Shown here: positions 8,269-32,121 of the stretch, piece after piece
How positions within the stretch are numbered: the first letter of the stretch is position 1
Layout: each line of letters begins with the position of its first letter
Assembly (NCBI GenBank): GCA_943329105.2
Contig: CALQCP020000003.1
Coordinates: 1-32,121, forward strand
Length of the DNA: 32,121 nucleotides
Direction of reading: 5' to 3'
Origin: Chitinophaga pinensis
GTDB lineage: Bacteria; Planctomycetota; Phycisphaerae; Phycisphaerales; SM1A02
The notes under the pieces: model-generated
The model's input: only the letters and a program-made list of their open reading frames with translations
The model's database searches: none
Told to the model about the DNA's origin: nothing
Translations under genes and position numbers: made by a program

Positions 8269-10326
8269 TTACGGCTGTTTTCCAGCCGCTTTCACAACAT
8301 CGAACGCGGCGGAGTAATCGCTTCCAGCGAGCGCGATCAGCGCATTCACGTCAATGAATTGCACACCGCGCACGGGGTCAGCGCGTTTGAAACGAGCCTT
8401 CTGTTCATCCAGCGGTAGGTCGAACGGCACCTCGTAATTCATATCCGTCAACGCGGTGCCGCCGCTATCGGCGTGCTGCGTCTTCACGGCGGTCACAGCG
8501 GCAGTGATCTTCTCAATGGCGCTTGCGGGATACAGGTCGGTCAGTCGAATCAGTGCGGCGTCGCGCTGGTCAGGCATTTGATCGCCGTTCAAGACGGACG
8601 CAAATGCAACACGCGCAAACACTGCGCCGGGTCCGCGCTGTTTGAGAATCTGTACGCGCGCAGCGATCGCCTCATTGGCAGATGCGTCTCGGCGCGGCAT
8701 CCCCGCGGTGACAATGTCCTTGGCGTCATCTTCCATACCCTTGCGGAAACCGAACGGATCGCCGGTTGGCATGAACACCAGTGCGCGTTCCATTTCATCA
8801 ATGCCCGTCTTGGAAATCGGCCCCATCTTCGCAGCCTCCTGAACGGCAGCGCTGGTTTCACGCCAAATACTGTGCGCAAGCGCCGAACGTGGCAAGGACG
8901 GATCCATGGCAAGTAGGGCACCAACGCGGTACGCGGTGACCGCAGCAGCAACGATGGCCTCGGGCCGCTTGTCCTCGCGCGCCCTGCGCAAGCCATCAGC
9001 GAGCGCCATCCGCGTAGCACCGCGAATTCCCCCAAGCAGCATCACGTCAAGCGTGGGCGCGCGATGACGCAGCGCAGTGAAATCACATCGCTTGCAAGTA
9101 ATCGCCTCGGACAGCGGCTTCATGACATTGCGATCGGCGCGCGTCAGAATGTCCATCGCGCGTTCGGTTCGGGCCGCGTCAAGCGCGTCGGGCGCCACGC
9201 GAAGCAGTTCTAACGATTCCTGCACTTCGTCCGGGACACTCCGCGCGCCAGCGCTTGCACGGGAAAGAAAGAGCGCAGCGTTCATGACGTCTTCGCGTTT
9301 CTCTTTGCCATCTGCAATTACTTGCAAGCGCGCAAACAGCAGCGCTAAGTCTTGGTCGGCTGTTAGTTTTCGCTGATAGATACTGGCAAACTCCGGCAGC
9401 ACCAACTTTGCAAGCGGACCAAATCGACCGCCTTCCGCATATTGTGAAAGACGCCGCAACGCGTCAATCGCTGCATTTGGATCCGGGCTTGAGAATGCCA
9501 ACGCGGCGCGGTCGTAGACGGTGCGCAATGACTCCGCGGAATTTCGCGCGTTTTCAAGGGTAATTTCCGACCCTTTCCCGCCACCGTCGACCATGGTGAT
9601 CATCTCCTGGATGTCTTTGTCGGACTTGGCACCGCGCACACTGTTGTTCAGCAGTTCCCACTCTCCCTTGATGGCATCGCCATATCGAAACGGATCCGAG
9701 CCCTTGAGTGGTCCAAGTGCCTCAAGCAATTGTTGCGCTGCCTTCTGATCAACCGCACCGGCATCAATGGCCTCATTGGTGGTGTCCGCCAGCATGGAGC
9801 CAAGCGATGAACCAACCATGGAACTAATGGCAATTCGATCCTGCCCGGACTGCGCGCCCATGATTCCAAGCGCAGCCAGACTCACCAGCGCGTCGGCAGA
9901 ATTACTGTCATCAAGCTCCGCAATCACTTGCACGCGCATCAGGCGCGCTGCGCTGCGGGTGTTGGGAAGGTGCTCAAGCGTGAGTGCAAAGCCTTTGGTG
10001 CGGTCAAGATCCCAGTCGGCACGCTTCACTCGCGCGGCAGCATCAAACTGTTGGCGCACGGCGGCGGTTCGTTGCAGCAATACATCAAGCTGCGCCCGCT
10101 CTTCTTGGGTGACTGGATAGTGGAGATTGCCAAGGAACGCTTCCTCATCGGTACTGATGATTGGAGCGGGTGTTCCATAGCCTGCGGCCTGAAACGCGGC
10201 GCGCCAGAGCGGTGCAGCGTTGTCTTGCGCAGCGGCCCGCGAGACCAGCGTTCCGGCGGCGCACATGCACAGCGCGATAAGCATGCGCTGCAGAATCACC
10301 GATGGCAGCAGGAATGGCGTGCGCAT
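8269..10326 (-). CDS. Secreted hypothetical protein, alpha-helical
   Basis: No family recognised. The 685-aa product starts with a signal peptide: LLPSVILQRMLIALCMCAAGTLVSRAAAQ, with probable cleavage after AAA near residue 33. The rest is mostly helical, alanine- and charge-rich, with no membrane segment, no clear enzyme motif and one CKRC pair near the middle that could bind metal or form a disulfide. It should be exported to the periplasm. The ATG at 10326 is preferred because it starts the signal peptide and is preceded by TACCCT 7 nt upstream. Its neighbour (10455-12134) is read in the same direction 128 bp upstream and is also an exported or anchored helical protein, so the two may work together. 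The 3' end converges on lepB with a 33-bp gap. Confidence 0.8.
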   Translation of the reverse strand: MRTPFLLPSVILQRMLIALCMCAAGTLVSRAAAQDNAAPLWRAAFQAAGYGTPAPIISTDEEAFLGNLHYPVTQEERAQLDVLLQRTAAVRQQFDAAARVKRADWDLDRTKGFALTLEHLPNTRSAARLMRVQVIAELDDSNSADALVSLAALGIMGAQSGQDRIAISSMVGSSLGSMLADTTNEAIDAGAVDQKAAQQLLEALGPLKGSDPFRYGDAIKGEWELLNNSVRGAKSDKDIQEMITMVDGGGKGSEITLENARNSAESLRTVYDRAALAFSSPDPNAAIDALRRLSQYAEGGRFGPLAKLVLPEFASIYQRKLTADQDLALLFARLQVIADGKEKREDVMNAALFLSRASAGARSVPDEVQESLELLRVAPDALDAARTERAMDILTRADRNVMKPLSEAITCKRCDFTALRHRAPTLDVMLLGGIRGATRMALADGLRRAREDKRPEAIVAAAVTAYRVGALLAMDPSLPRSALAHSIWRETSAAVQEAAKMGPISKTGIDEMERALVFMPTGDPFGFRKGMEDDAKDIVTAGMPRRDASANEAIAARVQILKQRGPGAVFARVAFASVLNGDQMPDQRDAALIRLTDLYPASAIEKITAAVTAVKTQHADSGGTALTDMNYEVPFDLPLDEQKARFKRADPVRGVQFIDVNALIALAGSDYSAAFDVVKAAGKQP

Positions 10327-12309: not shown

Positions 12310-12337
12310 TTGGTAATCGGTGAATTGGAACTATGTT
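12310..12337 (+). promoter_or_regulatory. Candidate promoter for the FG-GAP repeat protein
   Basis: TTGGTA (12310-12315), a 16-nt spacer and TATGTT (12332-12337) form a plausible sigma-70-type promoter. The -10 box ends 10 nt before the ATG at 12347. This position supports ATG 12347 over the track's GTG at 12320, which would lie inside the promoter. Confidence 0.4.
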
Positions 12338-12346
12338 GGCAGGTAC

Positions 12347-14071
12347 ATGCAGCCCTTCCCAACCACTGCCGCCATGCGGAGTCGAATGTACGCAAGCCGG
12401 GTTGTTGCAGTGGCAGTGTTGGCCGCGGTGTCAGTCATCGCTCCTGCGCATGCTCAGCAGTTCGTTCAAGAGACCACCACTCGGTTTCCTGTGCAGGCCG
12501 AATACACCAACCAGTCCACGGTGGTGGACATCGACAACGATGGCGACCTCGACATCGTCTGGGCGAACGGCCAGGGTTATTCCACGCAAGGCACGGCGCT
12601 TGCAGTGCGCGTCTATGTGAACAATGGCGCGGGCGTGTTTGCCGACGAAACATCCACACGCGCAACAGGCATCACTGGTTGGTATCGCGGCGTTGAAGCT
12701 GGTGACATCGACCGTGACGGCGATTGGGATTTGATCTTGGCGAATGACTTCAACAAGCGCCCGCAGATTCTGGTCAACAACGGCGCGGGCGTGTTTGCGG
12801 ATCAGACCGCCACACGACTGCCCACCACCACCATGTCAAGTGCGCGCGCGCAGTTTGGCGATGTGGACAATGACGGCGATCTTGACCTGGTGTTCTGCAA
12901 CAACGGAACCACGCGCTTTGGATCGGGGCAACCGCAGCTGTATCTCAACAACGGTGCTGGTGTGTTCACTGCCACTACTGGCTACCTGCCCGTTGGAAAT
13001 GTCAGCGAGCAAATGGACATCTTGTTCTTTGATATGGACAATGATCTTGACCTGGACATTCTGCTGGCCACGCGGGCAAGTTCGCCAAATCAGAGTCGCC
13101 TGTGGAGAAACGACGGTACGGGTCGCTATGCGAATCTAGCTACTTTGCCCGCGGATTCCACGGCGTACAGCTACGACGCGGGTGACATTGATGGCGATGG
13201 TGACTTGGACCTGATCGGCATCAACGCTGGGGCATCAAGCACGGAATTGCTGTTACGCAACAACGGCACGGGCACCGCGTGGACCAACATTTCCACCAGC
13301 ATCACGCCCAATCCGGCCACGGATGACAACGACAGCCGCTTCTTTGACATTGACATGGACGGCGATCTTGACATGGTCATCGGAAGTCTTGGCGCACGTG
13401 ACCGCATCTACTTAAACAGCGGAGCGGGTGTATTTGCTGAGAGCACCACGCTCATGGCTGCAGTGAGTGATGCGACCATTGACGTCAAAGTTGCCGACTT
13501 CAACAACGACAAGCGCTTTGACATCATCACGGCGCAGGGCGAAAGCGGCGCGTTCCAAAATCGGATCTACATGAACAACACCGGTCCGATCGACAACCGC
13601 GCGCCGCGCGTCGTTGCGATGGATCAGATAGTGCCCGCGACACCAGCCACCGCGCAATCAGTGCGCGCAGACATCGCTGACGACATGACCAGCGACCGCG
13701 GCTTCCACGACAAGGGTGTGACGCTCAACTACACCGTGAACGGCGGAGCCACGCAGACCGCGCCGATGCCATGGAACGGCAACAATCAATGGCGCGGCAT
13801 CATTCCCGTCCAGGAGATTGGCGCAGTGGTGGTGTACTGGGTCATAGCCACCGATTGGGCTGGAAATCAGGGCACTGGCCCAAGCAAGACCTACACCGTT
13901 CCAACGCCATTTGACCCCGCAGATTTCGATCGAAACGGCGTTGTCAACGGCGCGGATCTTGGGTTCTTGCTTGGAGCGTGGGGCCCAGGAAACGGGCCCG
14001 CGGACCTTGATCGCAACGGCGACGTGAACGGCGCGGACCTTGGATGGTTGCTCGGCTCGTGGAGTGTGTGA
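12347..14071 (+). CDS. Secreted FG-GAP/VCBS repeat protein with dockerin-like C-terminus
   Basis: Exported beta-propeller-type protein. The signal peptide MYASRVVAVAVLAAVSVIAPAHA ends before QQF. About seven VCBS/FG-GAP units follow, each with a calcium-binding acidic loop: DIDNDGDLDIV, DIDRDGDWDLI, DVDNDGDLDLV, DMDNDLDLDIL, DIDGDGDLDLI, DIDMDGDLDMV and a degenerate seventh. The phrase NNGAGVFAD recurs between units. An Ig-like stretch comes next, then two EF-hand-like repeats (NGADLGFLLGAWG, NGADLGWLLGSWS), a dockerin-type tag seen on many Phycisphaerae secreted proteins. Likely role is calcium-dependent adhesion or surface display; no enzymatic motif is seen. ATG 12347 is preferred by promoter position; ATG 12374 or 12386 would also leave an intact signal peptide. 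Confidence 0.9.
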   Translation: MQPFPTTAAMRSRMYASRVVAVAVLAAVSVIAPAHAQQFVQETTTRFPVQAEYTNQSTVVDIDNDGDLDIVWANGQGYSTQGTALAVRVYVNNGAGVFADETSTRATGITGWYRGVEAGDIDRDGDWDLILANDFNKRPQILVNNGAGVFADQTATRLPTTTMSSARAQFGDVDNDGDLDLVFCNNGTTRFGSGQPQLYLNNGAGVFTATTGYLPVGNVSEQMDILFFDMDNDLDLDILLATRASSPNQSRLWRNDGTGRYANLATLPADSTAYSYDAGDIDGDGDLDLIGINAGASSTELLLRNNGTGTAWTNISTSITPNPATDDNDSRFFDIDMDGDLDMVIGSLGARDRIYLNSGAGVFAESTTLMAAVSDATIDVKVADFNNDKRFDIITAQGESGAFQNRIYMNNTGPIDNRAPRVVAMDQIVPATPATAQSVRADIADDMTSDRGFHDKGVTLNYTVNGGATQTAPMPWNGNNQWRGIIPVQEIGAVVVYWVIATDWAGNQGTGPSKTYTVPTPFDPADFDRNGVVNGADLGFLLGAWGPGNGPADLDRNGDVNGADLGWLLGSWSV

Positions 14072-18924: not shown

Positions 18925-21900
18925 TCACTTCAAAGTCCTCAAATACTCCACCACATCCCGCACTTCCCGCGGCGTGAGAACAGTTCCCATCGCGGGCATG
19001 GCGCTGATCGGTCCGAAGCCCTGCGCTACCTGGGCATTCGGCTCAACGATGCTCAAAAGCATCCCTCTGCGGTCATAGCGATTCGCTACACCCGCAAGAC
19101 TCGGCGCGGCGTGTCCGCCAGTGCCTTCCACCATGTGGCAGCGAAGGCATGCGGCCGCACTGTTGAAGTTCACCACTTGTCGGCCGCGTTCCACATCGCC
19201 GCCTTCAAGCGTCAAGAGCCAGGTACCCAGTTTGTCACTGGCGGTCAGGTTGCTCGACCACGCAGCAGCTTGATCCTTCAACTTTGGTCGTGTTGCTACC
19301 GCATCAATCACATCGATCGATAGCGCGGGCGGCAGTGTCCCTGCAGTCATCGAGGCCACCAGGCCAGCAAGCGCCGCATCCGCAGCCACGCCCTCACTTG
19401 CGCCAATAGCCGCAATTGCAGCCTGTTTCTCCAGGGTGGTGCCACCAGAAAACGCAGCGTTCAACATCTCTTGACCGCGCGTAGGGTCATTGCGAACAAC
19501 AATGGTTCGCGCTTGCGCACGCAACCGCGGCTCGTCGGAAATCAACGCAGCGTTAACCGCTTGCGCAAGTTTCGCATCGCGGTCTTGCGCCAACTGCATC
19601 AAACAGGCCACGCGCTCTTGCGCGGACTTGGTGCGGTCAAGCACCGCCGCAAGCGCGGCGCCACTATCCATTGGTACCCCGTACTTTGCAGCCAGTTCAC
19701 GCGCAATAGTGCGCACCGCGCTCGGCCCATTGGTTGCCAAACTGGGAATGCGCTGCTTCAGTACAGCAACATAGGCATCCTTGGAACGCTCACTGGCATC
19801 CACGGGACGCCAGTGCCCATTGACGCGGTCGCGGGGGGCTGGCGCCAAGAACGTAGCGAGCGCATCCATCGCTTCGATGCGCGCTGCTGGCGCAAGGGCG
19901 GGATTTGCAGCCATCGCAGCAATCGCCGCAGCATTGGCGGGTGTGCCTTCGCGGACATTCTCATTGATTACGCGGCGCAAGAGTGGCATGGAACTGTTTT
20001 CGCCCATGAACGAACCAATCGGCTGCTCCTTCTTGCCATCGGGATGCACCACTCCAACGGCCAAGTGATTACCACCACCGCCCTGGAACGCGCGCGCCTC
20101 GATGTATGCCTCGTCACCCGCATCCAAGTGCACGGTGGCAAACTGACCAGGTTGTGCCTCCCAATCGCCGGGATTTACGTAGTTCTCTACCTTGGCCACT
20201 TGATTGGCAGCAGCGGGATCACCCTTTGCGGAAATCAGCAATACACTGTCATCGTCGCTGGCAACGCTGAAGACATAGTCGCCGGTCGCGGGCACTTTGA
20301 ATGTGCCACGCACACGCTGGACGTAGTCATTGCCGGCCTTTGCAAATCCACTGCATTCATCAAGGAACTCAGACCGATCGGCCTTGGTGGACCAAATTGG
20401 ATCAGACGCGAGTTGCACAGCGCTGAAACCCTTGCGGTCCGTCCACATCTGCCGTTCCCACGTTGACTTGTCCTTCGCTGCATCCGCGGCGGTTGCCAAC
20501 GCACGATCATCCGGTGCAAACTTTGCAGCAAGCGCCGCAAGTGCGGGCTCCGCTTCTAGAATCGGCAAATCATTGATAGCCCGCGCGGCTTCAGTCGCCA
20601 CACGCAGGTCAGGGTCATGAAGGAGACGCGCCAATTGTGGGTCGCGCGTCATGCGCATGGCGAGCACCGCAGTGAGCCGCGTCTGTGGAAACGGATCCGC
20701 AGCAAGTTCATGAATCTTGTCTGGCTGTTCCATGCCAACCAAGCCCATGACGGCCGCGTGGCGCAAGAACGGATCTTGATTCTCATTCTCCCACGCCATC
20801 GCAGCGATGTTCTGCATGGCTGAAATATGCTTGATTTTCCCAAGCGCAATCGCAGCTTGCGCACGGACGCGCAGGTCTTCATCAGTGAGGAGCGAAACCA
20901 GCGCATCACCAGCGGTGGCGATCCGCGCATCACCAGCGAGTCGCGCAGAAAGCCTACGAATTTCGGCATTTTCATCAGCCAGACGCGCAACAACCGCAGC
21001 GTCCGCCTTCGCCATGCGTTGGCCAGCATCAGCACCATGGCGCGCCTGCACGCCGAGCGCCCACAGCGCATGGAACCTCGGCGCAAACGCCTGGCCCGCG
21101 TCCGCTGCGACAGTGACCAGCGAGTCCGTGGCCTTTGCACCACGACGCGCAAGTTCCAAATGCGCGCGTTGACGAATGCGAATATCAGGGTGCGCCAGGC
21201 ATTGCAGCAGAAGTGATTCTGCTTGGTTGCCAAAGCCCTCACGCACCAGATTTTGCGCAGTGCGAATATTCACATCTTCAATGAGCGTTGGATCCCACAC
21301 GGTGAACATTTGACCAGTGTGATCGCTGTACCAACCGTTCGACCAATCACTGATGTACATCTTGCCGTCCCAGCCGAAATCAACATCGGTTGGCAGGACT
21401 TCCTTCACAAACTCATGTGAATCAGTCACCGTGTAGCCAGCACCTTGCGGCTCAACCGCAAAGGAGAGGATCTGGCTGTACTCATCACCGCCAAGAAAGT
21501 CGCAAAGGAAGAAGTGGTTTTGGTATCGCGCGGGAAGCCCAAGCCCTGGATAGAACGCAAGACCGGCGGGGCCATCCGAAAGATGTTCAATCGGAGGAAG
21601 CGTCCATGCTGGTCGCACTGGATCTGCCGCGTCCCACTTCCACCACGTGTGCTCTTGACTCCACGGTCCGCGTTGATTAGCACCCTCAAGCGTCTGGTAG
21701 TTCATATCCCAACCGGTTTCGCCACCTTCCATGATGTAAACGATGCGCGCTCGATCGCCGCCATCAGAGTTGTTGTCCCCAGTGAAGAGATCGCCCCATT
21801 GATTGAAGGCTAATTCCTGCGGATTTCGCAGCGAATGCGCGAACACCTCCAAGTGTGATCCATCGGGTTCGCAGCGAAACACCGCGCCGGTAAAGGTGCG

Positions 21901-22659
21901 GGCAAGCTCCTTGCCTTCCTTGCTGCGAACGCGGTAGCCGCGATCGCCGATCGACCAATACACGCGACCATCAGGACCTTGCACAAGACCGTGCATGTCA
22001 TGACCACGCAGGGCGGTGCGGATGCCGAAGCCGGTGAACATTTTCTCGCGCACATCGGCGACGCCGGTGCCCTTTGTGTCTTGAAAGCGCCACAGCGATG
22101 GAATGCACGTGTACCAAACCGAGCCATCGATAAACGCAACACCAGCACCGGTGCCATCGAGCGGATCATTCATCGGCCCGCTGAATGAAGTGACCTTGTC
22201 AGGAATACCATCGCCGTTTGTATCAACCAGGTGCGTGACCCGATCCTCTTCCTTGCGGTAGTAGTCCATACCACCTTCGCGCTTGGACGCCCACTTCTCA
22301 TACATCTTCAGACGGTCTTCGACGGACTGCAGTTGCAGGTCATCATCAAGCCAGAATTTGGAGGAGCGATTGTCTTCGACACCCTTCTCTTGGCGGAAGG
22401 ACTCGGCGATGAAGAGCGAGCCGTCATCAGCGACGCAGAAGGAGACGGGGTCCTGGACGAGCGGGTCTTGGGCGAAGAGGGACCAGGAGAGGGGGGCGAC
22501 GGGGGCGATGGAAGGGGCTGGGGTCGGCGGCGTGGCGGCGGAGCCGGCTGCGTTGGTGGTGCCGGCGCTCGTGCTGGTTCCTGATAGGGCAGCTGGCGGC
22601 GTGGGAGACTGGGCGATGAGCGCCACGGCGAGCAGCGGAAGGGCGGGGCATGGGGGCAT
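18925..22659 (-). CDS. PVC-type heme-binding protein: propeller, HEAT repeats, PA14-like domain and cytochrome c
   Basis: A 1244-aa exported protein. A short hydrophobic N-terminus (ALPLLAVALIAQ) precedes an Ala/Thr/Pro linker to about residue 56. Residues about 57-465 match the Pirellula/Verrucomicrobium membrane-bound dehydrogenase propeller (FCVADDGSLFIAESFR, HSLRNPQELAFNQWGDLFTGDN, GRVYWSIGDRGY). HEAT-like helical repeats follow to about 725, then a PA14-like beta domain (FKVPATGDYVFSVASDDDS), more HEAT repeats, and a C-terminal cytochrome c with CLRCH at 1171-1175 and candidate axial Met in SAMPAM. The family is abundant in planctomycetes and is presumed to be an extracytoplasmic sugar or alcohol dehydrogenase; no substrate is proven. 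ATG 22659 is the only usable ATG after an upstream in-frame stop. Confidence 0.92.
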   Translation of the reverse strand: MPPCPALPLLAVALIAQSPTPPAALSGTSTSAGTTNAAGSAATPPTPAPSIAPVAPLSWSLFAQDPLVQDPVSFCVADDGSLFIAESFRQEKGVEDNRSSKFWLDDDLQLQSVEDRLKMYEKWASKREGGMDYYRKEEDRVTHLVDTNGDGIPDKVTSFSGPMNDPLDGTGAGVAFIDGSVWYTCIPSLWRFQDTKGTGVADVREKMFTGFGIRTALRGHDMHGLVQGPDGRVYWSIGDRGYRVRSKEGKELARTFTGAVFRCEPDGSHLEVFAHSLRNPQELAFNQWGDLFTGDNNSDGGDRARIVYIMEGGETGWDMNYQTLEGANQRGPWSQEHTWWKWDAADPVRPAWTLPPIEHLSDGPAGLAFYPGLGLPARYQNHFFLCDFLGGDEYSQILSFAVEPQGAGYTVTDSHEFVKEVLPTDVDFGWDGKMYISDWSNGWYSDHTGQMFTVWDPTLIEDVNIRTAQNLVREGFGNQAESLLLQCLAHPDIRIRQRAHLELARRGAKATDSLVTVAADAGQAFAPRFHALWALGVQARHGADAGQRMAKADAAVVARLADENAEIRRLSARLAGDARIATAGDALVSLLTDEDLRVRAQAAIALGKIKHISAMQNIAAMAWENENQDPFLRHAAVMGLVGMEQPDKIHELAADPFPQTRLTAVLAMRMTRDPQLARLLHDPDLRVATEAARAINDLPILEAEPALAALAAKFAPDDRALATAADAAKDKSTWERQMWTDRKGFSAVQLASDPIWSTKADRSEFLDECSGFAKAGNDYVQRVRGTFKVPATGDYVFSVASDDDSVLLISAKGDPAAANQVAKVENYVNPGDWEAQPGQFATVHLDAGDEAYIEARAFQGGGGNHLAVGVVHPDGKKEQPIGSFMGENSSMPLLRRVINENVREGTPANAAAIAAMAANPALAPAARIEAMDALATFLAPAPRDRVNGHWRPVDASERSKDAYVAVLKQRIPSLATNGPSAVRTIARELAAKYGVPMDSGAALAAVLDRTKSAQERVACLMQLAQDRDAKLAQAVNAALISDEPRLRAQARTIVVRNDPTRGQEMLNAAFSGGTTLEKQAAIAAIGASEGVAADAALAGLVASMTAGTLPPALSIDVIDAVATRPKLKDQAAAWSSNLTASDKLGTWLLTLEGGDVERGRQVVNFNSAAACLRCHMVEGTGGHAAPSLAGVANRYDRRGMLLSIVEPNAQVAQGFGPISAMPAMGTVLTPREVRDVVEYLRTLK

Positions 22660-23103: not shown

Positions 23104-24051
23104 TTAATGGACTACATACTTGGAGCTACGAACCCTGCGGATCTGTGCATTTAGCAATCGAACAATGTCAATGATTCCCATCGCAATGAGAAGTCGGATA
23201 GCCCAAATCATGGCGCGTGCCAAGACGATCTCGAAGTGGAACCAGGCGTCGAATCGAGCGATCTCAGTACTCGACATATACACAGGTGGGTAGTAGCCCA
23301 GGACCATCGCTCCGACGATGTAAACACCCTTCTCTAAGCGGTAGTAGCCGAGGGGGGTATAAACTCGAGCAATGAAATCACTGTACTTGTTCATATCACC
23401 GCTAGTTGTCACGCCGATTGCTGCGTCCGTCAGATATGGCCCGTAGTAACTGGATAACGAGTCGTAAAGTGGACTAAACGTCTGCATTCGGAACTCGCTG
23501 ATTTCTGAATGGGATAGCAGATCCTCCACTTGGAGCGGCCTTAAATTACTGAGTGGTACCCCGCCCTCAAGCATGTCAATCAGACCTGCGCCTTGAAATT
23601 CGTTTACCTGGATTGGACACTCAACCAAAGTGTGTCCCTCTCCCCCTCGCGCCTTTGCAGCGTGCATCACCCAAACAATGTTATATGGAACCCCCATTCC
23701 TTGAAGTTTGCGCGCTAGGGCTTTGGATCTAAATGCGCAGTTACCTACACCTCCTTCAAACACACGCTTTAAGCGTAAGTCTGGATCAATGATCCAAGCT
23801 TCATCAAATTCAGTCTCCCCGCTCGGTAGAGGCGCAAGAATTTGCCGTGGGTCAACAAAGTATCGAAATTCATTACCCTGCAACAACGGTAAGTCATTTA
23901 CTTCGATTATAGAGGCACATTTGACAAACCCATTCGGGGAGCTAAATCCCCAAAAATTTGAAACGCCTACTAAAAGTAGTCCGATCAATAGTCGGTATGC
24001 AAAAGCCCACTTAGTTTCAATGGAGCGCTTAAATGTGGCGGAAATTGCCAT
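23104..24051 (-). CDS. Membrane protein with transglutaminase-like (papain-fold) domain
   Basis: 315 aa, with no family I can name outright. A hydrophobic segment at about 14-36 (WAFAYRLLIGLLLVGVSNFWGF) anchors the N-terminus, and a second at about 273-297 (IVLARAMIWAIRLLIAMGIIDIV) lies near the basic C-terminus. Between them, GGVGNCAFRSKALARKLQGMGVPYN followed by GEGHTLVECPI and GLIDML fits the transglutaminase-core arrangement: Cys105, His140 and Asp159, with His-Asp spacing normal for that fold. The catalytic domain would face the periplasm between two membrane anchors. Members act as peptidases, amidases or acyl-transferases; the substrate here is unknown. Base composition is visibly AT-richer than the core genes. 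It is divergent from the polysaccharide operon. Confidence 0.65.
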   Translation of the reverse strand: MAISATFKRSIETKWAFAYRLLIGLLLVGVSNFWGFSSPNGFVKCASIIEVNDLPLLQGNEFRYFVDPRQILAPLPSGETEFDEAWIIDPDLRLKRVFEGGVGNCAFRSKALARKLQGMGVPYNIVWVMHAAKARGGEGHTLVECPIQVNEFQGAGLIDMLEGGVPLSNLRPLQVEDLLSHSEISEFRMQTFSPLYDSLSSYYGPYLTDAAIGVTTSGDMNKYSDFIARVYTPLGYYRLEKGVYIVGAMVLGYYPPVYMSSTEIARFDAWFHFEIVLARAMIWAIRLLIAMGIIDIVRLLNAQIRRVRSSKYVVH

Positions 24052-24427
24052 GGGCAGTAGTTACTGTATCTCGCACAGGGCTGAACGGCGCAGCTTTGGC
24101 CATGCTCATGACGACGTGCACTAAAAATTCATTGATCGCCGCGATGTAAACGAGAAAAACGCGTGTTGCAGGCACTCCTAATCGGGACTGGTTCCATGAT
24201 TGGTCCGACACTGACAACAATGACCACGCGTGCGGCGTGGTTGATTTACTTGTGGATATCAACGGTAGTCGCGCGCAAGTTGCGGGGGCTCACACCGGCC
24301 TAGTCAGTCCGGATCCACAGGAGCGGATTTGGTTTCTTTAACTAGCAATTCAACATGTCGCAGCGTTTATGCCGATTAAATGTCTGTCGTGTGGCTTAAG
24401 CCGTAAAAATTAGCGACCCTACTACAC
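24052..24427. other. 376-bp intergenic stretch upstream of the polysaccharide operon
   Basis: A divergent control region between the transglutaminase-like gene and asnB. It contains a TACAGT box serving the leftward gene (listed), an AT-rich run and a perfect 10-bp palindrome GGCTTAAGCC at 24393-24402, 26 nt before the asnB ATG, which could be an operator. An open plus-strand frame (24150-24341) has no start codon and is not called. No clear sigma-70 promoter for asnB is visible. Confidence 0.45.
24063..24068 (-). promoter_or_regulatory. Candidate -10 box (TACAGT) for the transglutaminase-like gene
   Basis: On the minus strand TACAGT ends 12 nt before the ATG at 24051. The -35 region was not resolved. 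Confidence 0.25.
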
Positions 24428-26320
24428 ATGTGCGGCATAATCGGATTCAACGGTCAGTTTTCCCGAGTAGACTTGCTTGCTGGGCTAGAGATTATGCGCC
24501 ACCGGGGGCCAGATGACAGTGGACTGTGGATAGATCCTTCTAAAAACGTGGGGCTCGCCCATGCGCGACTCTCCATTATCGATCTCTCTCCGCTTGGCCA
24601 CCAGCCGATGGTTGACCCTACAACGGGCACACAACTTGTCTTCAACGGCGAGATTTACAACTATCGTGAACTTCGGGCTCAGTTGGAGGCTCGGGGCCAC
24701 ACTTTCCGGGGCCATTCGGACACAGAAGTTTTGCTGCACATGTATCTCGAGCATGGGTCGGAGATGCTCTCTCGGCTCAACGGCATTTTCACCGTTGGTA
24801 TTTGGGATCCGCGGACGGCATCCCTCACCATCGCCCGCGACGCTCTCGGTGTCAAGCCGCTTTACTTCGCCGAGTCGCCACGCGGCATTGCATTCTGCAG
24901 CGAGATCAAGGGACTGCTCCATCTAGTTCCTGAAGCTCGGGAACTAGACCCAGCCGCTCTCCACCGGTACCTCACATTTCTCTGGTGCCCCGGCGAAGGT
25001 ACACCTCTTAAAGCAGTTCGCAAAGTCCTCCCTGGTGAAGCGCTGCAGATCTCTGATGGCCGCATTCAGCGCCGTTGGTCGTGGTACCAACTGCCAATCT
25101 TCCGCGGCGTAATGCAGGACCTTGATGAAGGCGAAGCGATCGCCGGTACCGCTCAGGCGGTGCGCACGGCAGTACACCGTCAGATGGTTGCAGATGTTCC
25201 TGTCGGAGCGTTCCTGTCCGGCGGTCTTGATTCAAGCGCGATAGTCGCATTTGCCCGAGAAATCGACCCAAACCTTCGCTGCTTCACGATCGAGGCCACA
25301 GGCGGACAGGAAGCCGGCGAAACCGACGACCTGCCGTACGCCCGCCGCGTTGCGAAACACCTGGGTGTGCCACTTGAGTGCGTTCGCATCGATGCGGCGC
25401 GGATGGCATCTGACTTAGAGTCAATGGTTGCCCAGTTGGATGAACCGTTAGCCGATCCAGCGCCGCTCAATGTCCTCTACATCAGCCAACTTGCGCGTCA
25501 GAGCGGTATGAAGGTTCTGCTCTCCGGAGCTGGCGGCGATGACCTGTTCACTGGTTACCGCCGGCACCGTGCGATCCAAGCTGAGCGGCTGTGGAGTTGG
25601 TTACCCTCGTCAGCTCGCCACATGTTAGAACGCGCGACCGCATCGCTGGATCAGCGCCGAGCCTCGTCGCGACGCTTCGCGAAGTTGTTCCGCGGAGCAG
25701 GTCTGACCGGGGACCAGCGTATAGCGAACTACTTTTCATGGGCCAGCAATGCAGACATTCTCGCGTTGTACTCCCCTGCGATGCGTGAGGCGGTACGTGG
25801 TATTGATGCGCTCGCGCCCATGACAGACTTTATCGCCCCACTGCCGCGTTCGGTGTCCGCCGTCGATCGAATGCTTGCTTTGGAACAGCGCTTTTTCCTG
25901 CCTGACCACAATTTGACCTACACGGACAAGATGTCGATGGCAGTCGGTGTCGAGGTCCGAGTGCCGTTCCTCGACCTTGAGTTGGTGGACTTCGCGGCGC
26001 GCATCCCGGCTCGCTTCAAGCAGCGTGGAGCTGTTGGAAAGTGGGTGTTCAAGCGGTCAATGGAGCAGTATCTGCCGCGCGAGGTGATTTATCGTCCGAA
26101 AGCAGGATTCACAGCACCCCTTCGCCGTTGGATGCAAACAGAGTTGCGTCCAATCGTTGGCGACTACCTCTCGTCCGACAGTCTACGCCGCCGCGGGTTA
26201 TTTGACCCCACCGCGGTGTCTATGTTGGTCGAGGCGAACTTAGCTGGACGCGTCGATGCTAATCACACGATACTTTCACTTCTTTGCATCGAAATTTGGT
26301 GTCGACGCTTTATTGATTGA
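24428..26320 (+). CDS. Asparagine synthase (glutamine-hydrolysing) family amidotransferase
   Basis: 630 aa, typical of AsnB. Met is followed directly by the catalytic Cys2 of the class II glutaminase domain (MCGIIGFNGQ). RHRGPDDSG, HARLSIIDLS and FNGEIYNYRELR follow. The synthetase domain has the pyrophosphate loop FLSGGLDSS (from residue 263) and late motifs KMSMAVGVEVRVPFLD and PKAGFTAPLRRWM. The enzyme takes the amide nitrogen of glutamine and transfers it to an ATP-activated carboxylate. As first gene of a polysaccharide operon it may amidate a uronic-acid sugar or another cell-surface carboxylate rather than make free asparagine; both are possible. The next gene begins at or just after its stop, implying translational coupling. 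Confidence 0.92.
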   Translation: MCGIIGFNGQFSRVDLLAGLEIMRHRGPDDSGLWIDPSKNVGLAHARLSIIDLSPLGHQPMVDPTTGTQLVFNGEIYNYRELRAQLEARGHTFRGHSDTEVLLHMYLEHGSEMLSRLNGIFTVGIWDPRTASLTIARDALGVKPLYFAESPRGIAFCSEIKGLLHLVPEARELDPAALHRYLTFLWCPGEGTPLKAVRKVLPGEALQISDGRIQRRWSWYQLPIFRGVMQDLDEGEAIAGTAQAVRTAVHRQMVADVPVGAFLSGGLDSSAIVAFAREIDPNLRCFTIEATGGQEAGETDDLPYARRVAKHLGVPLECVRIDAARMASDLESMVAQLDEPLADPAPLNVLYISQLARQSGMKVLLSGAGGDDLFTGYRRHRAIQAERLWSWLPSSARHMLERATASLDQRRASSRRFAKLFRGAGLTGDQRIANYFSWASNADILALYSPAMREAVRGIDALAPMTDFIAPLPRSVSAVDRMLALEQRFFLPDHNLTYTDKMSMAVGVEVRVPFLDLELVDFAARIPARFKQRGAVGKWVFKRSMEQYLPREVIYRPKAGFTAPLRRWMQTELRPIVGDYLSSDSLRRRGLFDPTAVSMLVEANLAGRVDANHTILSLLCIEIWCRRFID

Positions 26321-26332
26321 CCGATCTCTATC

Positions 26333-26336
26333 AGGA
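26333..26336 (+). promoter_or_regulatory. Possible Shine-Dalgarno (AGGA) for the methyltransferase
   Basis: AGGA lies four bases before ATG 26341. The spacing is short, but the TTG alternative at 26317 has no comparable motif, so this tips the start choice. Confidence 0.3.
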
Positions 26337-26340
26337 ACTC

Positions 26341-27174
26341 ATGAAGAGCACCGCGGATCCAGCACCTGGGGCAGAAACCAAGCATGCTGTCCGTGATTTT
26401 TGGAATCAAGCATCGTGCGGAGAAGATCTCTATCTCAGCGCACTTGATGTCGCGGGATTCGATGCGCACATGCGAAAGCGATACGAGTTAGAACCATACA
26501 TTGCTGACTTTGCGAAATTCTCATCGTCGCGAGGAAAGCATGTGCTCGAGATCGGCGTTGGCATTGGTGCTGATCATCAGCAATTCGCTCAAGCCGGAGC
26601 GCATCTCACGGGGATCGACCTAACTGAACGGGCAGTGCTTCGGACAACCGAACGATTCCGACTCAACAACCTTAACTCGGACTTGCAAGTCGGCGATGCA
26701 GAGCATCTACCTTTCCTCAACAACACATTTGATTTGGTTTACTCTTGGGGGGTTATTCACCACAGCCCTAATACACTTGCAGCAGTGCGGGAGATTGAAC
26801 GCGTTTTGCGCGTAGGTGGCGTTGCTCGTGTAATGATCTACAACTATTGGAGCATGATTGGTTTGATGCTCTGGCTGCGCTATGCGTTGCTGCGCGGGCG
26901 GCCATGGCAGGGTCTCACACAGATGTACTGCGAGCACCTCGAGAGTCCGGGCACAAAGGCATACACGCCCTCGCAGGCTAGGGAGATGTTCTCGATATTC
27001 AAGTCATGTACCGTTAATACGGTGATGACACACGGGGACCTACTTGAGGGTCAAGCAGGTCAGCGCCACCAAGGAATTCTGCTTTTATTAGCACGAAAGG
27101 TTTGGCCGAGGTGGCTAATCCGCCGCCTAGCACCAAGGGCTGGTCTTTTCATGCTTATCGAAGCCTACAAATAG
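26341..27174 (+). CDS. SAM-dependent class I methyltransferase
   Basis: About 277 aa from ATG 26341. Motif I is VLEIGVGIGADHQQFA (near residue 68), with LTGIDLTERAV, then VGDAEHLPFLNNTFDLVYSWGVIHHSP and EIERVLRVGGVARVMIYNYW, the usual Methyltransf_11/25 order. A hydrophobic stretch after motif III (MIGLMLWLRYALL) may contact the membrane or a lipid-linked substrate. The track's TTG 26317 overlaps the asnB stop (TTGA) and is a real alternative. ATG 26341 is preferred for its codon and an AGGA four bases before it. Likely O- or N-methylation of a sugar or glycan end; the acceptor is not deducible. The codons are more AT-rich than those of the core genes. Confidence 0.88.
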   Translation: MKSTADPAPGAETKHAVRDFWNQASCGEDLYLSALDVAGFDAHMRKRYELEPYIADFAKFSSSRGKHVLEIGVGIGADHQQFAQAGAHLTGIDLTERAVLRTTERFRLNNLNSDLQVGDAEHLPFLNNTFDLVYSWGVIHHSPNTLAAVREIERVLRVGGVARVMIYNYWSMIGLMLWLRYALLRGRPWQGLTQMYCEHLESPGTKAYTPSQAREMFSIFKSCTVNTVMTHGDLLEGQAGQRHQGILLLLARKVWPRWLIRRLAPRAGLFMLIEAYK

Positions 27175-27178
27175 ACCA

Positions 27179-29350
27179 ATGAAACAAATCCTCCAATCCC
27201 TAAAAACCGGCATCACCGAAGTTGCCGAAGTCCCATGCCCCGCCGTTCGGTCTGGGCAGCTCCTCATCCGCTCGTCCCGAACACTCGTCTCTGTCGGCAC
27301 CGAGCGCATGCTTGTGGAATTTGGAAAGGCTGGTTGGATCGCAAAGGCCCGCCAGCAGCCAGACAAGGTTCGGATGGTGCTCGACAAGATCAAAACCGAT
27401 GGGCTTTTGCCGACGTTTGAGTCGGTCATGAACAAGCTGGATCAGCCGCTTCCCCTCGGTTACTGCAACGTCGGACGGGTCATGATCACGGGAGGTGGCG
27501 TCGCCAACTTTGAGATCGGGGATCGAGTGGTGTCTAATGGCAAGCACGCCGAGGTGGTCAGCGTGCCCGTGAACCTGTGCGCACGGGTCCCAGAAGGCGT
27601 CTCCGATGACGAGGCAGCATTCACAGTGCTCGGTGCGATCGCACTACAGGGCATCCGTCTTGTACAGCCGACGCTTGGCGAGGCAGTTGTGGTCACTGGT
27701 CTCGGCCTTATTGGTCTGGTGACGGTGCAACTTTTGCGTGCACATGGCTGTCGCGTGTTAGGACTCGACTTCGATCCAGCAAAACTAGAGTTAGCACGGT
27801 CGCTCGGAGCAGAAACCGTCGACTTATCCGCGGGCCAAGATCCAGTAGCCGCAGCGCAGGTCTTCTCGCGCGGCCGAGGTGTCGACGCCGTAATCATTAC
27901 CGCATCAACCAAGAGTAACGAGCCCGTGCATCAAGCGGCGCTCATGTGCAGGAAGCGCGGTCGCATCGTTCTCGTAGGCGTCACAGGTCTTGAACTTTCG
28001 CGCGCAGATTTCTTTGAGAAGGAACTCACCTTCCAAGTTTCGTGCTCTTACGGCCCGGGGCGCTATGACGCTAGTTATGAGGAGAAGGGCAACGATTACC
28101 CGGTTGGCTATGTCCGTTGGACGGAACAGCGCAACTTTGAAGCAGTGCTGGACATGATGGCTGATGGTCGCCTGAATGTGAAGCCGTTGGTGTCACATCG
28201 TTTCGCCATCACCGAGGCAGAACAGGCCTACGAGTTGGTCGGCGGCGGTGGTCCATCGTTGGGCATTTTGCTTCAGTACCCCGACCAAACTGCAAAGACA
28301 GATGCGCAGGTCCGTGAGCAAACGGTGTCACTCGCTAACAGTACTGACGGAAGCCAAACAATTGACAGATCAGTTGATTGGGAACCCTCAACGGCCACAG
28401 TCGCGTTCATTGGCTCAGGTAATTATTCCACTGCCGTGCTCATCCCAGCGTTCAAGGCAGGCGGTGCGCGCATGAAGACAGTCGCGTCTGCTGGTGGTGT
28501 GAGCGGCGTCCACGCTGGCCGAAAATTCGGCTTTGAGGCCACAACTACTGACACCGCAAGCGTATTCGCTGACCCCGCGATCAATGCTGTCGTCATCACG
28601 ACGCGCCACGACAGTCACGCATCGTTGGTTTGCAAGGCACTCCGAGCAGGCAAACACGTGTTTGTTGAAAAGCCATTGGCGCTACGCCTTGATGAGATTG
28701 CAGACATTCAACAAGCACATGCAGAGGCACGGGCAGCAGGTGGTAACCCGATCGTCATGGTTGGCTTTAACCGGCGGTTCGCCTCTCAGGTGCAGCGCAT
28801 TCATCAACTCCTTCGTGGCGTGACAGGTCCGAAGAGTTTTATTATGACAGTCAATGCCGGTGCCATTCCCGCTGAGCACTGGACACAGGATCGCCAATCA
28901 GGCGGTGGGCGCATTGTTGGTGAGGGTTGCCACTTCATCGACCTCATTCGTTTCTTGGCAGGTTCACCTATCTCGGCAATTGATGTGTGCACGATGGACT
29001 CCGGCACGGGCGACACTGTTTCGATTCAACTGGCCTTCCATGATGGGTCGATCGGCACCGTGCACTACTTTGCTAATGGCACCAAGGCGTTCCCCAAGGA
29101 GCGGCTTGAGGTGTTCGCTGCGGGCCGCGTGTTGCAGCTAGACAATTTCCGTAAATTGCGAGGCTTTGCTTGGCCGGGATTCCGAAAGATGAATCTATGG
29201 AGCCAAGACAAGGGCCAGAAGGCCTGCGCTAAAGCATTCATCGATGCAGTTCAAGAAGGACGTGGCTCCGCCCCCATCCCATTTGAAGAGATTATTGAGG
29301 TCGCCAAGGCGAGTATTGAGGCGGCCGACTTTCCGAGGAACCGACCGTGA
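27179..29350 (+). CDS. Bi-domain oxidoreductase: MDR (zinc-alcohol-dehydrogenase-like) fused to Gfo/Idh/MocA
   Basis: 723 aa with two complete NAD(P)-binding modules. Residues 1-360 are a medium-chain dehydrogenase, with a Rossmann motif VVVTGLGLIGLVTVQLL at about 170. The Cys/His set that binds catalytic zinc in classical alcohol dehydrogenases is not apparent near the N-terminus, and the structural-zinc Cys cluster is missing. After a linker, residues about 404-723 are Gfo/Idh/MocA-type: VAFIGSGNYSTAVLIPAF, VVITTRHDSHASL, VFVEKPLAL with the conserved Lys498, and GGGRIVGEGCHFIDLIRFL. Such fusions recur in surface-polysaccharide loci and probably modify a nucleotide sugar, but the reaction is not established. 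It begins 4 nt after the methyltransferase stop and overlaps the next gene by 4 nt (GTGA). Confidence 0.9.
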   Translation: MKQILQSLKTGITEVAEVPCPAVRSGQLLIRSSRTLVSVGTERMLVEFGKAGWIAKARQQPDKVRMVLDKIKTDGLLPTFESVMNKLDQPLPLGYCNVGRVMITGGGVANFEIGDRVVSNGKHAEVVSVPVNLCARVPEGVSDDEAAFTVLGAIALQGIRLVQPTLGEAVVVTGLGLIGLVTVQLLRAHGCRVLGLDFDPAKLELARSLGAETVDLSAGQDPVAAAQVFSRGRGVDAVIITASTKSNEPVHQAALMCRKRGRIVLVGVTGLELSRADFFEKELTFQVSCSYGPGRYDASYEEKGNDYPVGYVRWTEQRNFEAVLDMMADGRLNVKPLVSHRFAITEAEQAYELVGGGGPSLGILLQYPDQTAKTDAQVREQTVSLANSTDGSQTIDRSVDWEPSTATVAFIGSGNYSTAVLIPAFKAGGARMKTVASAGGVSGVHAGRKFGFEATTTDTASVFADPAINAVVITTRHDSHASLVCKALRAGKHVFVEKPLALRLDEIADIQQAHAEARAAGGNPIVMVGFNRRFASQVQRIHQLLRGVTGPKSFIMTVNAGAIPAEHWTQDRQSGGGRIVGEGCHFIDLIRFLAGSPISAIDVCTMDSGTGDTVSIQLAFHDGSIGTVHYFANGTKAFPKERLEVFAAGRVLQLDNFRKLRGFAWPGFRKMNLWSQDKGQKACAKAFIDAVQEGRGSAPIPFEEIIEVAKASIEAADFPRNRP
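29333..29337 (+). promoter_or_regulatory. Shine-Dalgarno (GAGGA) for the epimerase gene
   Basis: GAGGA lies inside the end of the preceding gene, nine bases before the GTG at 29347. It decides the GTG start and the 4-nt overlap with the upstream gene. Confidence 0.5.
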
Positions 29351-30450
29351 AGACAGTGCTTGTTGACATCATCGCCGGAGCGCGACCAAATTTCATGAAG
29401 ATCGCGCCCATCATTCATGCCATTGAAGCGCGGAAAGCGCAGGGCGGCCCGGTGCGATTTCGGCTTGTGCATACCGGACAGCATTACGACGAAAAGATGT
29501 CCGGCGACTTCTTCAAGCAGCTCGGCATCCCCGCACCAGATGTGAATCTTGAGGTCGGCTCAGGCACGGCCGCCGAGCAGACTGCTGGCATCATGATCGG
29601 GTATGAGAAGTTGCTTACCGAGCGCAAGCCGGACCTTTGCCTGGTCGTTGGTGACGTCACATCCACTATGGCATGCGCCATTGCAGCGCAAAAACTTTGG
29701 GTAAAGGTTGCCCACGTGGAGGCTGGTATCCGCTCAGGTGATTGGTCGATGCCAGAGGAGATCAATCGACTGGTCACCGATTCGATTACCAATATGTTCT
29801 TCACCACAAGCGAAGTGGCAAACGAAACATTGCGGCGTTCAGGTGTGCCAGAATCCGCGATTCACTTTGTGGGCAACACCATGATCGACACATTGCTATC
29901 GAACATGGATCGATTGCGGCCGCCGCCGTTCTGGGCCGAGCATGGCCTTGAGGCGGGAAAATATTTTGTGATGACGCTGCATCGACCAGCCAATGTTGAC
30001 TCGGGGAACACCTTCCAACGCATGCTTGACGCCATCTCGGCGGGCACTCGCGGCGAGAAGGTTGTGTTCCCGGTGCATCCGCGTACCGCGAAGACCATTC
30101 GCGATGGCGCCAAGGTCCCTGCGAATATTCTCTTGGTGGATCCGCAGCCTTATCTTGAATTTAACTACATGGTGAAGCACGCCAAGGCAGTCATCACAGA
30201 CTCGGGCGGAATTACTGAGGAAACCACCGTCATGGGCGTGCCGTGCATGACGCTTCGGAGCAGTACTGAGCGACCTGAGACCGTTACCCTTGGCACTAAT
30301 GAGTTGTTAGGAATCGATCCCGCTGCGCTTGGTCCGGCGCTGAACCGCCTATTTGCGGGCGAGTGGAAGCACGGGTCAGTACCGCCGCTGTGGGATGGCC
30401 ACACCAGCGAGCGAATCGTAGAAATCTTGGAGCGGGTATTAGCTGCCTGA
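29347..30450 (+). CDS. UDP-N-acetylglucosamine 2-epimerase (non-hydrolysing), WecB family
   Basis: 367 aa with a GTG start preceded by GAGGA. The family signatures are GARPNFMKIAPI, RLVHTGQHYDEKMSG, LVVGDVTSTMACA, HVEAGIRSGDWSMPEEINRL and DSGGITEETTVMGVPCMTLR. The enzyme interconverts UDP-GlcNAc and UDP-ManNAc through a 2-acetamidoglucal intermediate; the acidic and His active-site residues are in the quoted segments. Related FnlC/WbjD enzymes act on 6-deoxy sugars such as UDP-L-FucNAc precursors, and the operon partner at 32071 resembles WbuB (an L-FucNAc transferase), so the exact sugar is open. It overlaps the upstream gene by 4 nt and the downstream gene by 1 nt. Confidence 0.93.
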   Translation: MKTVLVDIIAGARPNFMKIAPIIHAIEARKAQGGPVRFRLVHTGQHYDEKMSGDFFKQLGIPAPDVNLEVGSGTAAEQTAGIMIGYEKLLTERKPDLCLVVGDVTSTMACAIAAQKLWVKVAHVEAGIRSGDWSMPEEINRLVTDSITNMFFTTSEVANETLRRSGVPESAIHFVGNTMIDTLLSNMDRLRPPPFWAEHGLEAGKYFVMTLHRPANVDSGNTFQRMLDAISAGTRGEKVVFPVHPRTAKTIRDGAKVPANILLVDPQPYLEFNYMVKHAKAVITDSGGITEETTVMGVPCMTLRSSTERPETVTLGTNELLGIDPAALGPALNRLFAGEWKHGSVPPLWDGHTSERIVEILERVLAA

Positions 30451-32069
30451 TGCACGGCCCCGCTGCGATGCTCCGGCTTTGGCACACCGTGCGTCACCTG
30501 AAGTTTGTACAGGTGTACGGGAGGGCGCGCTTTCGGTTGGCGCGGCCCCGACCGGACATGAGTCCCGCGCCAGCCGTGCGACTTCATGACGGATCTTGGG
30601 TGATGCCCGCTGCGCGCCGTGCGAGCATGGTTGGTCCATCGACACTGCGGTTGCTCTATGTAGAACGTTCGGTTGACAGTTGCGGCTGGGACGACCCCTC
30701 CATTGCAAAGTTGTGGAGGTACAACCTTCACTACTTCGACGACTTGCTCGCGGATGGCGCATCCACGCGCACCACTTGGCATCGGGCATTCATGTCGCGA
30801 TGGGTCCGGGAGAATCCGCCAGCTTCGGGCACCGGTTGGGAGCCTTATCCGACCTCGCTTCGTATTGTCAATTGGGTGAAGTGGACACTTGCTGGAAATG
30901 ACTTGCCGGTTGAGTGTGTTCAAAGCCTAGCCATTCAGGCGCGTTGGCTCCGTCAGCGTTTGGAATGGCACCTCCTTGGAAACCACCTGTTTGTAAATGC
31001 GAAAGCGCTGGTGTTTGCTGGGTGTTTCTTTGATGGCCCGGAGGCCGACGCATGGCTAGCCGAAGGGTTATCGATTCTCCGCGTTCAGATTCCAGAACAG
31101 ATCCTTGCTGATGGTGGGCAATTTGAGCGCAGTCCGATGTACCACGCGTTGGCGCTTGAGGACATGTTGGACCTTGAGAACCTTGCACGAATGTTCCCCA
31201 CTCGTTCCGTCAGTTGGCGTGGCATGGTTCAGGACCGCATCGCATCAATGCGTCATTGGCTTGGCGTGATGTGCCATCCGGATGGTGAGGTCTCGTTTTT
31301 CAATGACAGTGCAATTGGTGTTGCACCGGCTCCCGCAGAATTGGACGCCTACGCACAGCGCCTCGGTCTGGGAGTCATTCCACAGCTCGGTGATGGATGC
31401 ACCCTCCTCGCTGAAAGTGGTTTCGTGCGCATGCAGGCGGGCCCCGCGGTGGTGATCGCTGACGTTGGTCCGGTTGGCCCTGACTATTTGCCGGGGCACG
31501 CGCACGCGGACACGCTTTCTTTCGAACTCTCCTTGGATGGCAAACGCGTCTTGGTGAATTCCGGAACCTCGGAGTATGGCATCGGTGCTGAGCGCCTACG
31601 CCAGCGTGGGACAGAGGCGCACAACACTGTTACGGTCGGCGGCCACGATTCCTCCGAGGTGTGGGGCGGCTTCCGCGTCGCACGCCGTGCCCAGCCGGTT
31701 GACCGAGTAATCAACTCCGATGGGGACCCGATTTGCGTGTCTTGTTCGCACGATGGGTTTGCGCGGCTTGCTGGGCGTCCGATCCACCGCCGCGACTGGA
31801 CACTTACGCCAACGGGCCTGACGGTGACCGACACGATCGTTGGTCCCGGTGAGGGTCGCTCATTTTGGCACTGGATGCCAGGTATCCACGTGTTGCCGGG
31901 ATCCCCGATCGCGCTTGCCGACCGTTCCTTGCGCGTTTCAGTGAATGGCGCAGTGTGGTCGACCGCCTCCAGCACCTGGCATCCGGAATTTGGCGTCTTG
32001 ATGTCTAATGAACGTTCGTGCGCGGAATTTTCCGAACGCAGCTGCACCGTTTGCTTGGACTGGACCTGA
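30450..32069 (+). CDS. Heparinase II/III-family protein without signal peptide
   Basis: 539 aa from ATG 30450, which overlaps the epimerase stop (TGATG). The track's longer start at 30363 lies inside the epimerase gene. The N-terminal half is the helical toroid (LWRYNLHYFDDLL, WEPYPTSLRIVNWVKW, EWHLLGNHLFVNAKAL, GGQFERSPMYHALALEDMLDLENLA). The C-terminal half is the beta-sandwich (LPGHAHADTLSFEL, VNSGTSEYGIGAERLRQRGTEAHNTV). The Asn, Tyr and His residues used for catalysis in polysaccharide lyases are present in NHLFVN, SPMYH and GHAHAD. No signal peptide or membrane segment is seen, so it should be cytoplasmic and sits among biosynthetic genes. A role in modifying or proofreading the growing glycan is inference; it is not called a degradative lyase. 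Confidence 0.9.
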   Translation: MHGPAAMLRLWHTVRHLKFVQVYGRARFRLARPRPDMSPAPAVRLHDGSWVMPAARRASMVGPSTLRLLYVERSVDSCGWDDPSIAKLWRYNLHYFDDLLADGASTRTTWHRAFMSRWVRENPPASGTGWEPYPTSLRIVNWVKWTLAGNDLPVECVQSLAIQARWLRQRLEWHLLGNHLFVNAKALVFAGCFFDGPEADAWLAEGLSILRVQIPEQILADGGQFERSPMYHALALEDMLDLENLARMFPTRSVSWRGMVQDRIASMRHWLGVMCHPDGEVSFFNDSAIGVAPAPAELDAYAQRLGLGVIPQLGDGCTLLAESGFVRMQAGPAVVIADVGPVGPDYLPGHAHADTLSFELSLDGKRVLVNSGTSEYGIGAERLRQRGTEAHNTVTVGGHDSSEVWGGFRVARRAQPVDRVINSDGDPICVSCSHDGFARLAGRPIHRRDWTLTPTGLTVTDTIVGPGEGRSFWHWMPGIHVLPGSPIALADRSLRVSVNGAVWSTASSTWHPEFGVLMSNERSCAEFSERSCTVCLDWT

Positions 32070-32070
32070 C

Positions 32071-32121
32071 GTGCACATTCTCTTCCTCACTGACAATTTC
32101 CCGCCCGAGGTCAACGCGCCA
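32071..32121 (+). CDS. Glycosyltransferase family 4, WbuB-like (partial, truncated by window end)
   Basis: Seventeen codons are visible from a GTG one base after the heparinase-family stop. The translation, HILFLTDNFPPEVNAP after the start, is the typical N-terminus of WbuB-like GT4 glycosyltransferases: first beta strand, then the PPE loop. The enzyme transfers a sugar, in E. coli O26 L-FucNAc, from a nucleotide donor to a lipid-linked acceptor. The frame remains open at the window edge. It confirms that the operon continues, and it is too short to appear in the ORF track. Confidence 0.75.
   Translation, partial: MHILFLTDNFPPEVNAP

Follow-up and report, generated by a model that had tools for sequence, protein, structure and literature searches.

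The transglutaminase-type enzyme WbmE of Bordetella bronchiseptica is periplasmic and deamidates uronamide-rich O chains (King et al. 2009, cited in PMC3507681). As far as the account in PMC3507681 goes, WbmE has a catalytic triad, is encoded in the O-polysaccharide locus, and deamidates uronamides after assembly, which is the kind of linkage that the original prediction proposed for the gene studied here. In Caulobacter, HvyA is a transglutaminase-like capsule regulator whose residues C192, H226, and D241 are needed to block capsulation (PMC4241560). LapG, also transglutaminase-like, is a proven protease of the periplasm (PMC3032545), and in Pseudomonas aeruginosa the inner-membrane protein TgpA carries a periplasmic transglutaminase domain with activity in vitro (PMC3507681). 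The original prediction had found no described system that matches its gene. This does not agree with WbmE, as it is described, or with HvyA: the former deamidates uronamide O chains and the latter regulates a capsule. Thus, given the WbmE precedent, the idea of a periplasmic amide-acting enzyme working on an amidated polysaccharide is already described.

We analyzed a stretch of DNA of 32,121 nucleotides (the window), contig C3 of an assembly that is 67% complete and 2.5 Mb in size. The gene of interest, called TGL here, and the features discussed with it are as follows.

18925-22659: large protein combining DUF7133, HEAT-repeat, PA14, and cytochrome c domains, about 445 bp to the left of TGL
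23104..24051, minus strand: TGL, a transglutaminase-like protein with a hydrophobic helix at each end (ORF, seven relatives, alignments A2 and A3, AlphaFold2 models)
23170..23226, minus strand: C-terminal membrane segment, residues 276-294 (Kyte-Doolittle scan; helix 269-311 in the model)
23575..23577, minus strand: codon of Asp159 (invariant in eight sequences; ends strand 152-159 in the model)
23632..23634, minus strand: codon of His140 (invariant in eight sequences; in strand 139-149 in the model)
23737..23739, minus strand: codon of Cys105, the predicted nucleophile (invariant in eight sequences; starts helix 105-118 in the model)
23950..24006, minus strand: N-terminal membrane segment, residues 16-34 (Kyte-Doolittle scan; helix 5-36 in the model)
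24052..24427, no strand: gap of 376 bp between TGL and asnB (no consensus promoter; hairpin at 24221-24243)
24428..26320, plus strand: asnB, an asparagine-synthase-type glutamine amidotransferase and the first gene of the glycan module (Asn_synthase, 4.4e-91; GATase domains)
26317..27174, plus strand: class I methyltransferase
27179..29350, plus strand: bi-domain oxidoreductase (ADH plus GFO/IDH/MocA), the co-occurrence marker
29347..30450, plus strand: WecB-type UDP-GlcNAc 2-epimerase
30363..32069, plus strand: heparinase II/III-like protein; the contig ends soon after, and the locus appears to continue in contig C15

The TGL ORF lies where it had been placed (315 aa on the minus strand, with its ATG at 24051), and its seven relatives go beyond chance match, so TGL is a real gene. 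The three motifs named as catalytic were confirmed at their positions: GNCAFRSKALARKL around Cys105, GHTLVE around His140, and GLIDML around Asp159. We found that C105, H140, and D159 are kept in all eight aligned TGL proteins (alignment A3), so that the whole family shows the Cys-His-Asp order of the transglutaminase-like superfamily. The spacing of 35 residues from Cys to His and 19 from His to Asp is identical in the seven proteins of alignment A2 for which it was measured; the G765 protein was left out of this count, yet it aligns there without gaps. One member (L009) has a single Cys in the whole protein, at the Cys105 position. Since only 22 of the 228 domain columns are invariant in the eight-protein alignment, the conservation of the triad was a test that the prediction could have failed.

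Pfam Transglut_core (PF01841) matched TGL over residues 90-148 with 13.3 bits, below its gathering cutoff of 23 (E 0.1), and the best E value among seven members was 0.012, a weak match. None of the seven matched PF06035 (BTLCP) within HMMER's filters, even at E values of up to 10, DUF3488 was not found in the Pfam search of seven members, and the TGL sequence had no match in PDB, NCBIfam, PHROGs, plasmids, or phages. A PADLOC match to BrxB in one member (E 0.013) was judged to be chance. AlphaFold2 modeled the full-length protein from seven sequences with a pLDDT of 84.3 and the domain alone from eight sequences with a pLDDT of 86.8 and a pTM of 0.88. In the models Cys105 opens a helix, His140 lies close to the beginning of a strand, and Asp159 ends the next strand, and the predicted core topology is that of transglutaminase-like folds, with Cys at a helix start and His and Asp on the following strands. 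Foldseek returned no match under E 0.001 against PDB or against viral models; the top PDB matches had E values of 0.02 and above and TM scores of up to 0.44 by target length. They belong mostly to the transglutaminase superfamily and include GdmF (geldanamycin amide synthase), arylamine N-acyltransferases, LapG (4fgp, among the better matches, prob 0.84), tissue transglutaminase (TG2), PNGase, vasohibins, and the pseudomurein endoisopeptidases PeiW and PeiP, which are the top matches of the full-length model with E values that are not significant. Because these matches converge on one superfamily and the triad is kept, the assignment of TGL to a transglutaminase-like core is strong on the models, although each match is weak. 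Thus, the AlphaFold2 model and the conserved Cys-His-Asp support the papain/transglutaminase-like fold that had been proposed, with no single Foldseek match significant. TGL falls below the Transglut_core cutoff and, by the searches made, belongs neither to PF06035 nor to the DUF3488 architecture, so we prefer to describe it as a branch of the transglutaminase superfamily without a family assignment.

The two membrane segments that had been predicted to flank the domain were found at residues 16-34 and 276-294, and 7 of the 8 proteins score hydrophobic segments at both ends by Kyte-Doolittle; L009 scores at the N terminus only. Stretches rich in Lys and Arg, read from the sequence, lie on the outer side of both segments. 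Since these basic residues stand outside both helices, we infer that both termini are cytoplasmic and that the domain is outside the inner membrane.

Whole-genome searches found the seven relatives (identity about 23-48%), all within two genera of a single planctomycete family, and TGL carriers make up 8 of the 181 genomes of the family. One homologue, at 48% identity to TGL, belongs to the same genus as the window (G004); the other six are in a second genus, at about 23-28% identity to TGL (G057, G109, G198, G340, G348, and G765). A profile search of a phylum-wide sample gave no further credible member. Its match in G453, a short frame containing a stop, runs antisense to a multi-pass membrane ORF of 575 aa and was taken as noise; matches in G037, G230, and G198:C181 are short frames with stops and were discarded. 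Viral contigs scanned with the TGL alignment yielded none, and single-protein scans for close relatives in genome contigs and viral contigs yielded no relative. Beyond the phylum, genome contigs were covered by a degenerate-pattern scan, which gave just two matches, both known relatives; since this was the only search made there, more distant members may exist.

The order of genes around TGL agrees with the prediction in part. TGL is divergent from the asnB-led glycan genes, with 376 bp between them, and on the other side of this gap asnB is followed by the methyltransferase, oxidoreductase, wecB, and heparinase-like genes. It had been placed at the head of a glycan locus, which holds by position, but TGL is on the opposite strand from the glycan operon. 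A control region shared by the two was also claimed. As a conserved feature this was not borne out: a scan for sigma-70-like promoters, which does not cover all promoter types, found none in the gap, the gap contains terminator-like hairpins near 24221-24243, and TGL adjoins asnB in the window only. The asnB of the window scores above cutoff for asn_synth_AEB and below cutoff for the XrtA-type amidotransferase model. The last 148 bases of the window (31974-32121) recur unchanged at the end of another contig of this assembly, C15 (G000:C15, L117), which carries glycosyltransferases, a Wzx-type flippase, an acyltransferase-3, and then cysS/coaE at its end. If this join is right, TGL lies at one edge of a glycan island of ~25 kb. 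To the left, the DUF7133 protein was found in 17 of 21 genomes tested; it recurs in sister genomes together with GDP-fucose pathway genes, and the side that holds TGL and asnB in the window carries other genes there, with glycosyltransferases in G007 and G006. We found no RNA families or tRNA in the window.

The relatives of TGL have other neighbors. In G004, TGL is flanked by homologues of window genes 8269-10326 and 12320-14071, near gcvP-region genes; the region is broadly the same, but the place is some 12 kb away from the TGL site of the window. The window gene 12320-14071 encodes an FG-GAP-repeat protein with a weak C-terminal match to a GC-type dockerin (E 0.0023, below cutoff), and homologues of it are present in the sister genomes G004 and G013. 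In the second genus, TGL is directly upstream of an MFS gene in 5 of the 6 genomes, and in G057 a secreted M28 peptidase gene directly follows it. Where the contigs reach that far, a SMUG-like gene (named from its sequence; it has no NCBIfam match) is upstream of TGL, and an M28/PA/TFR-dimer peptidase gene follows the MFS gene. We set aside the idea of TGL, MFS, and M28 as one operon with one function: in G101, also of the second genus, the SMUG-like, MFS, and M28 genes adjoin without TGL. MFS homologues occur in all 12 genomes tested. Together, the empty site and the constant MFS gene indicate that TGL is an accessory gene beside core genes. Its base composition, with a G+C of 48% against about 58% for the window and its neighbors, and 58% against 71-72% for the two neighbors in G004, fits an accessory gene as G101 does. 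Identity among the TGL proteins of the second genus is about 42-50%, against about 60-87% for flanking genes. TGL is thus an accessory, fast-evolving gene found at different chromosomal sites.

The second genus has its asnB module at other sites than TGL. In all, six relatives are beside MFS/M28 core genes, one is near gcvP, and none of the seven adjoins asnB, so a conserved shared locus of TGL and the glycan module is not what we found. What is divergent from the asnB module in three second-genus genomes (L098:11556-13628; L100:196-1872; L102:1044-2891) is instead a secreted peptidase, S46 in G109 and, in G765 and G057, an M28 fused to a family-3 solute-binding domain.

We then asked about co-occurrence, with the bi-domain oxidoreductase of the asnB module as marker and the complete family set of 181 genomes as sample. 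A near-perfect co-occurrence in 21 hand-picked genomes had come from biased sampling and was replaced by these full counts. Both genes were present in 7 genomes, TGL only in 1 (G004, where the oxidoreductase was not detected), the oxidoreductase only in 19, and neither in 154. The oxidoreductase is therefore in 7/8 TGL-positive and 19/173 other family genomes (Fisher p=4e-6, uncorrected for kinship). Within the 16 genomes of the second genus, the better sampled of the two, the counts were 6 with both, 0 with TGL only, 4 with the oxidoreductase only, and 6 with neither, that is, 6/6 carriers against 4/10 others (p=0.026). Some absences may reflect assembly gaps; three of the four oxidoreductase-only genomes are 78-83% complete. 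Six of the eight carriers are of one genus, and the co-occurrence is partly driven by lineage. From these counts, and from the position of the module in the second genus, TGL and the oxidoreductase of the asnB module are moderately associated, without conserved adjacency; the glycan link that had been predicted holds as co-occurrence, with 19 oxidoreductase-positive genomes that do not have TGL. The module itself, asnB-(methyltransferase)-oxidoreductase-wecB-heparinase (window 24428-32069; G109:C24, G057:C45, G198:C26, G765:C12), is patchy, with the oxidoreductase in 26/181 genomes, and where present the oxidoreductase is highly conserved, at 70-80% identity.

What does TGL do? We tentatively read it as a thiol hydrolase or transferase of the envelope, encoded by an accessory gene and possibly editing glycan amides as WbmE does. 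Its substrate would most likely be an amide or acyl group carried by a polymer exported to the envelope, and an amidated surface glycan is the first candidate, put forward with some reserve. A protein or peptide is the second and is rather doubtful. That TGL might have no catalytic role, being instead an accessory membrane protein that evolves fast and keeps its triad for structural reasons, would suit its patchy distribution (8/181 family genomes) and its low identity among relatives next to the flanking genes. However, C, H, and D are strictly kept with constant spacing at only about 23-26% identity to the window protein, which is hard to explain without catalysis, and we consider this reading very improbable.

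A catalytic TGL could also be a cysteine protease tethered to the membrane, cutting proteins or peptides of the periplasm or surface by LapG-like chemistry, and its glycan link would then be lineage history. The rank of LapG among the fold matches, its proven activity as a periplasmic protease (PMC3032545), and the position of the second-genus TGL just upstream of the MFS gene, or of the secreted M28 gene in G057, all speak for such a protease. These neighbors are core genes, however, and TGL looks inserted beside them, as the G101 site and the MFS gene in all 12 genomes indicate; further, no member of the seven has a BTLCP/LapG Pfam match, and no anchored LapG was among the described precedents compared. 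We regard a protease as somewhat unlikely. Fold matches such as GdmF, the arylamine N-acyltransferases, and TG2, and the transglutaminase activity of the TgpA periplasmic domain in vitro (PMC3507681), would fit a role in transamidation or acyl transfer, in which TGL couples an amine or acyl group to an envelope polymer or forms crosslinks between proteins. The fold does not tell hydrolases from transferases, though, and no gene for making a donor or acceptor was seen to travel with TGL, so that we give this role a low probability.

If TGL is the envelope enzyme that we favor, it would sit in the inner membrane with its domain (about residues 45-270) in the periplasm between two anchoring helices. 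The Cys105-His140-Asp159 triad would form a thioacyl intermediate, by which TGL would most likely hydrolyze or transfer an amide (or similar acyl) bond in a polymer exported to the envelope. The asnB-type amidotransferase would add the amide to the glycan in the cytoplasm, uronamide synthesis by the window asnB being what knowledge of its family suggests, and after export the periplasmic TGL would trim or transfer this amide, on the pattern of Bordetella WbmE. Of the linked surface modification system first proposed, the triad, predicted fold, helices, and co-occurrence stood, while the shared locus and the absence of a described precedent did not. A bolder form of this reading, that TGL founds an unassigned family of twin-anchored periplasmic transglutaminase-fold enzymes that in planctomycetes edit amides, after export, on the glycan of the asnB-bi-domain oxidoreductase-wecB-heparinase module, WbmE-like but separate and with the editor gene usually unlinked, is unlikely as a whole. 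If the glycan reading is true, TGL would add a second example in which a transglutaminase-fold enzyme edits amides on a bacterial surface polysaccharide after export, this time in a phylum that has seen little work on its envelope glycans, and its unlinked gene would escape locus-based annotation. If it is false, TGL is still a small, unassigned, membrane-anchored branch of a well-known enzyme superfamily.

Set beside the described systems, TGL shares features with each. PeiW and PeiP have a fold like that predicted for TGL and act on an envelope polymer, but that polymer is archaeal pseudomurein, and they have no sequence match to TGL and fold E values that are not significant. HvyA and LapG (BTLCP, PF06035) are, like TGL, transglutaminase-like cysteine enzymes with Cys, His, and Asp, and they are enzymes of the periplasm. 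The triad spacing of HvyA is 34/15 where that of TGL is 35/19, and HvyA, which has a signal sequence, shows no discernible anchor, whereas TGL, with hydrophobic helices at both ends in 7/8 proteins, is not of the soluble exported type; PF06035 matched none of its seven members, and no LapD/LapA-type partner was noticed nearby. TgpA (DUF3488 plus Transglut_core) has a periplasmic transglutaminase domain anchored by membrane helices, as TGL is predicted to have. However, TgpA is a much larger protein that matters for viability, and five of its six predicted helices belong to DUF3488. TGL has a single helix at either end and no DUF3488 match, and its gene is accessory. WbmE, as described, carries out the kind of reaction proposed for TGL; TGL differs in carrying a hydrophobic helix at each end and in a glycan link that consists of co-occurrence, with adjacency in the window only.
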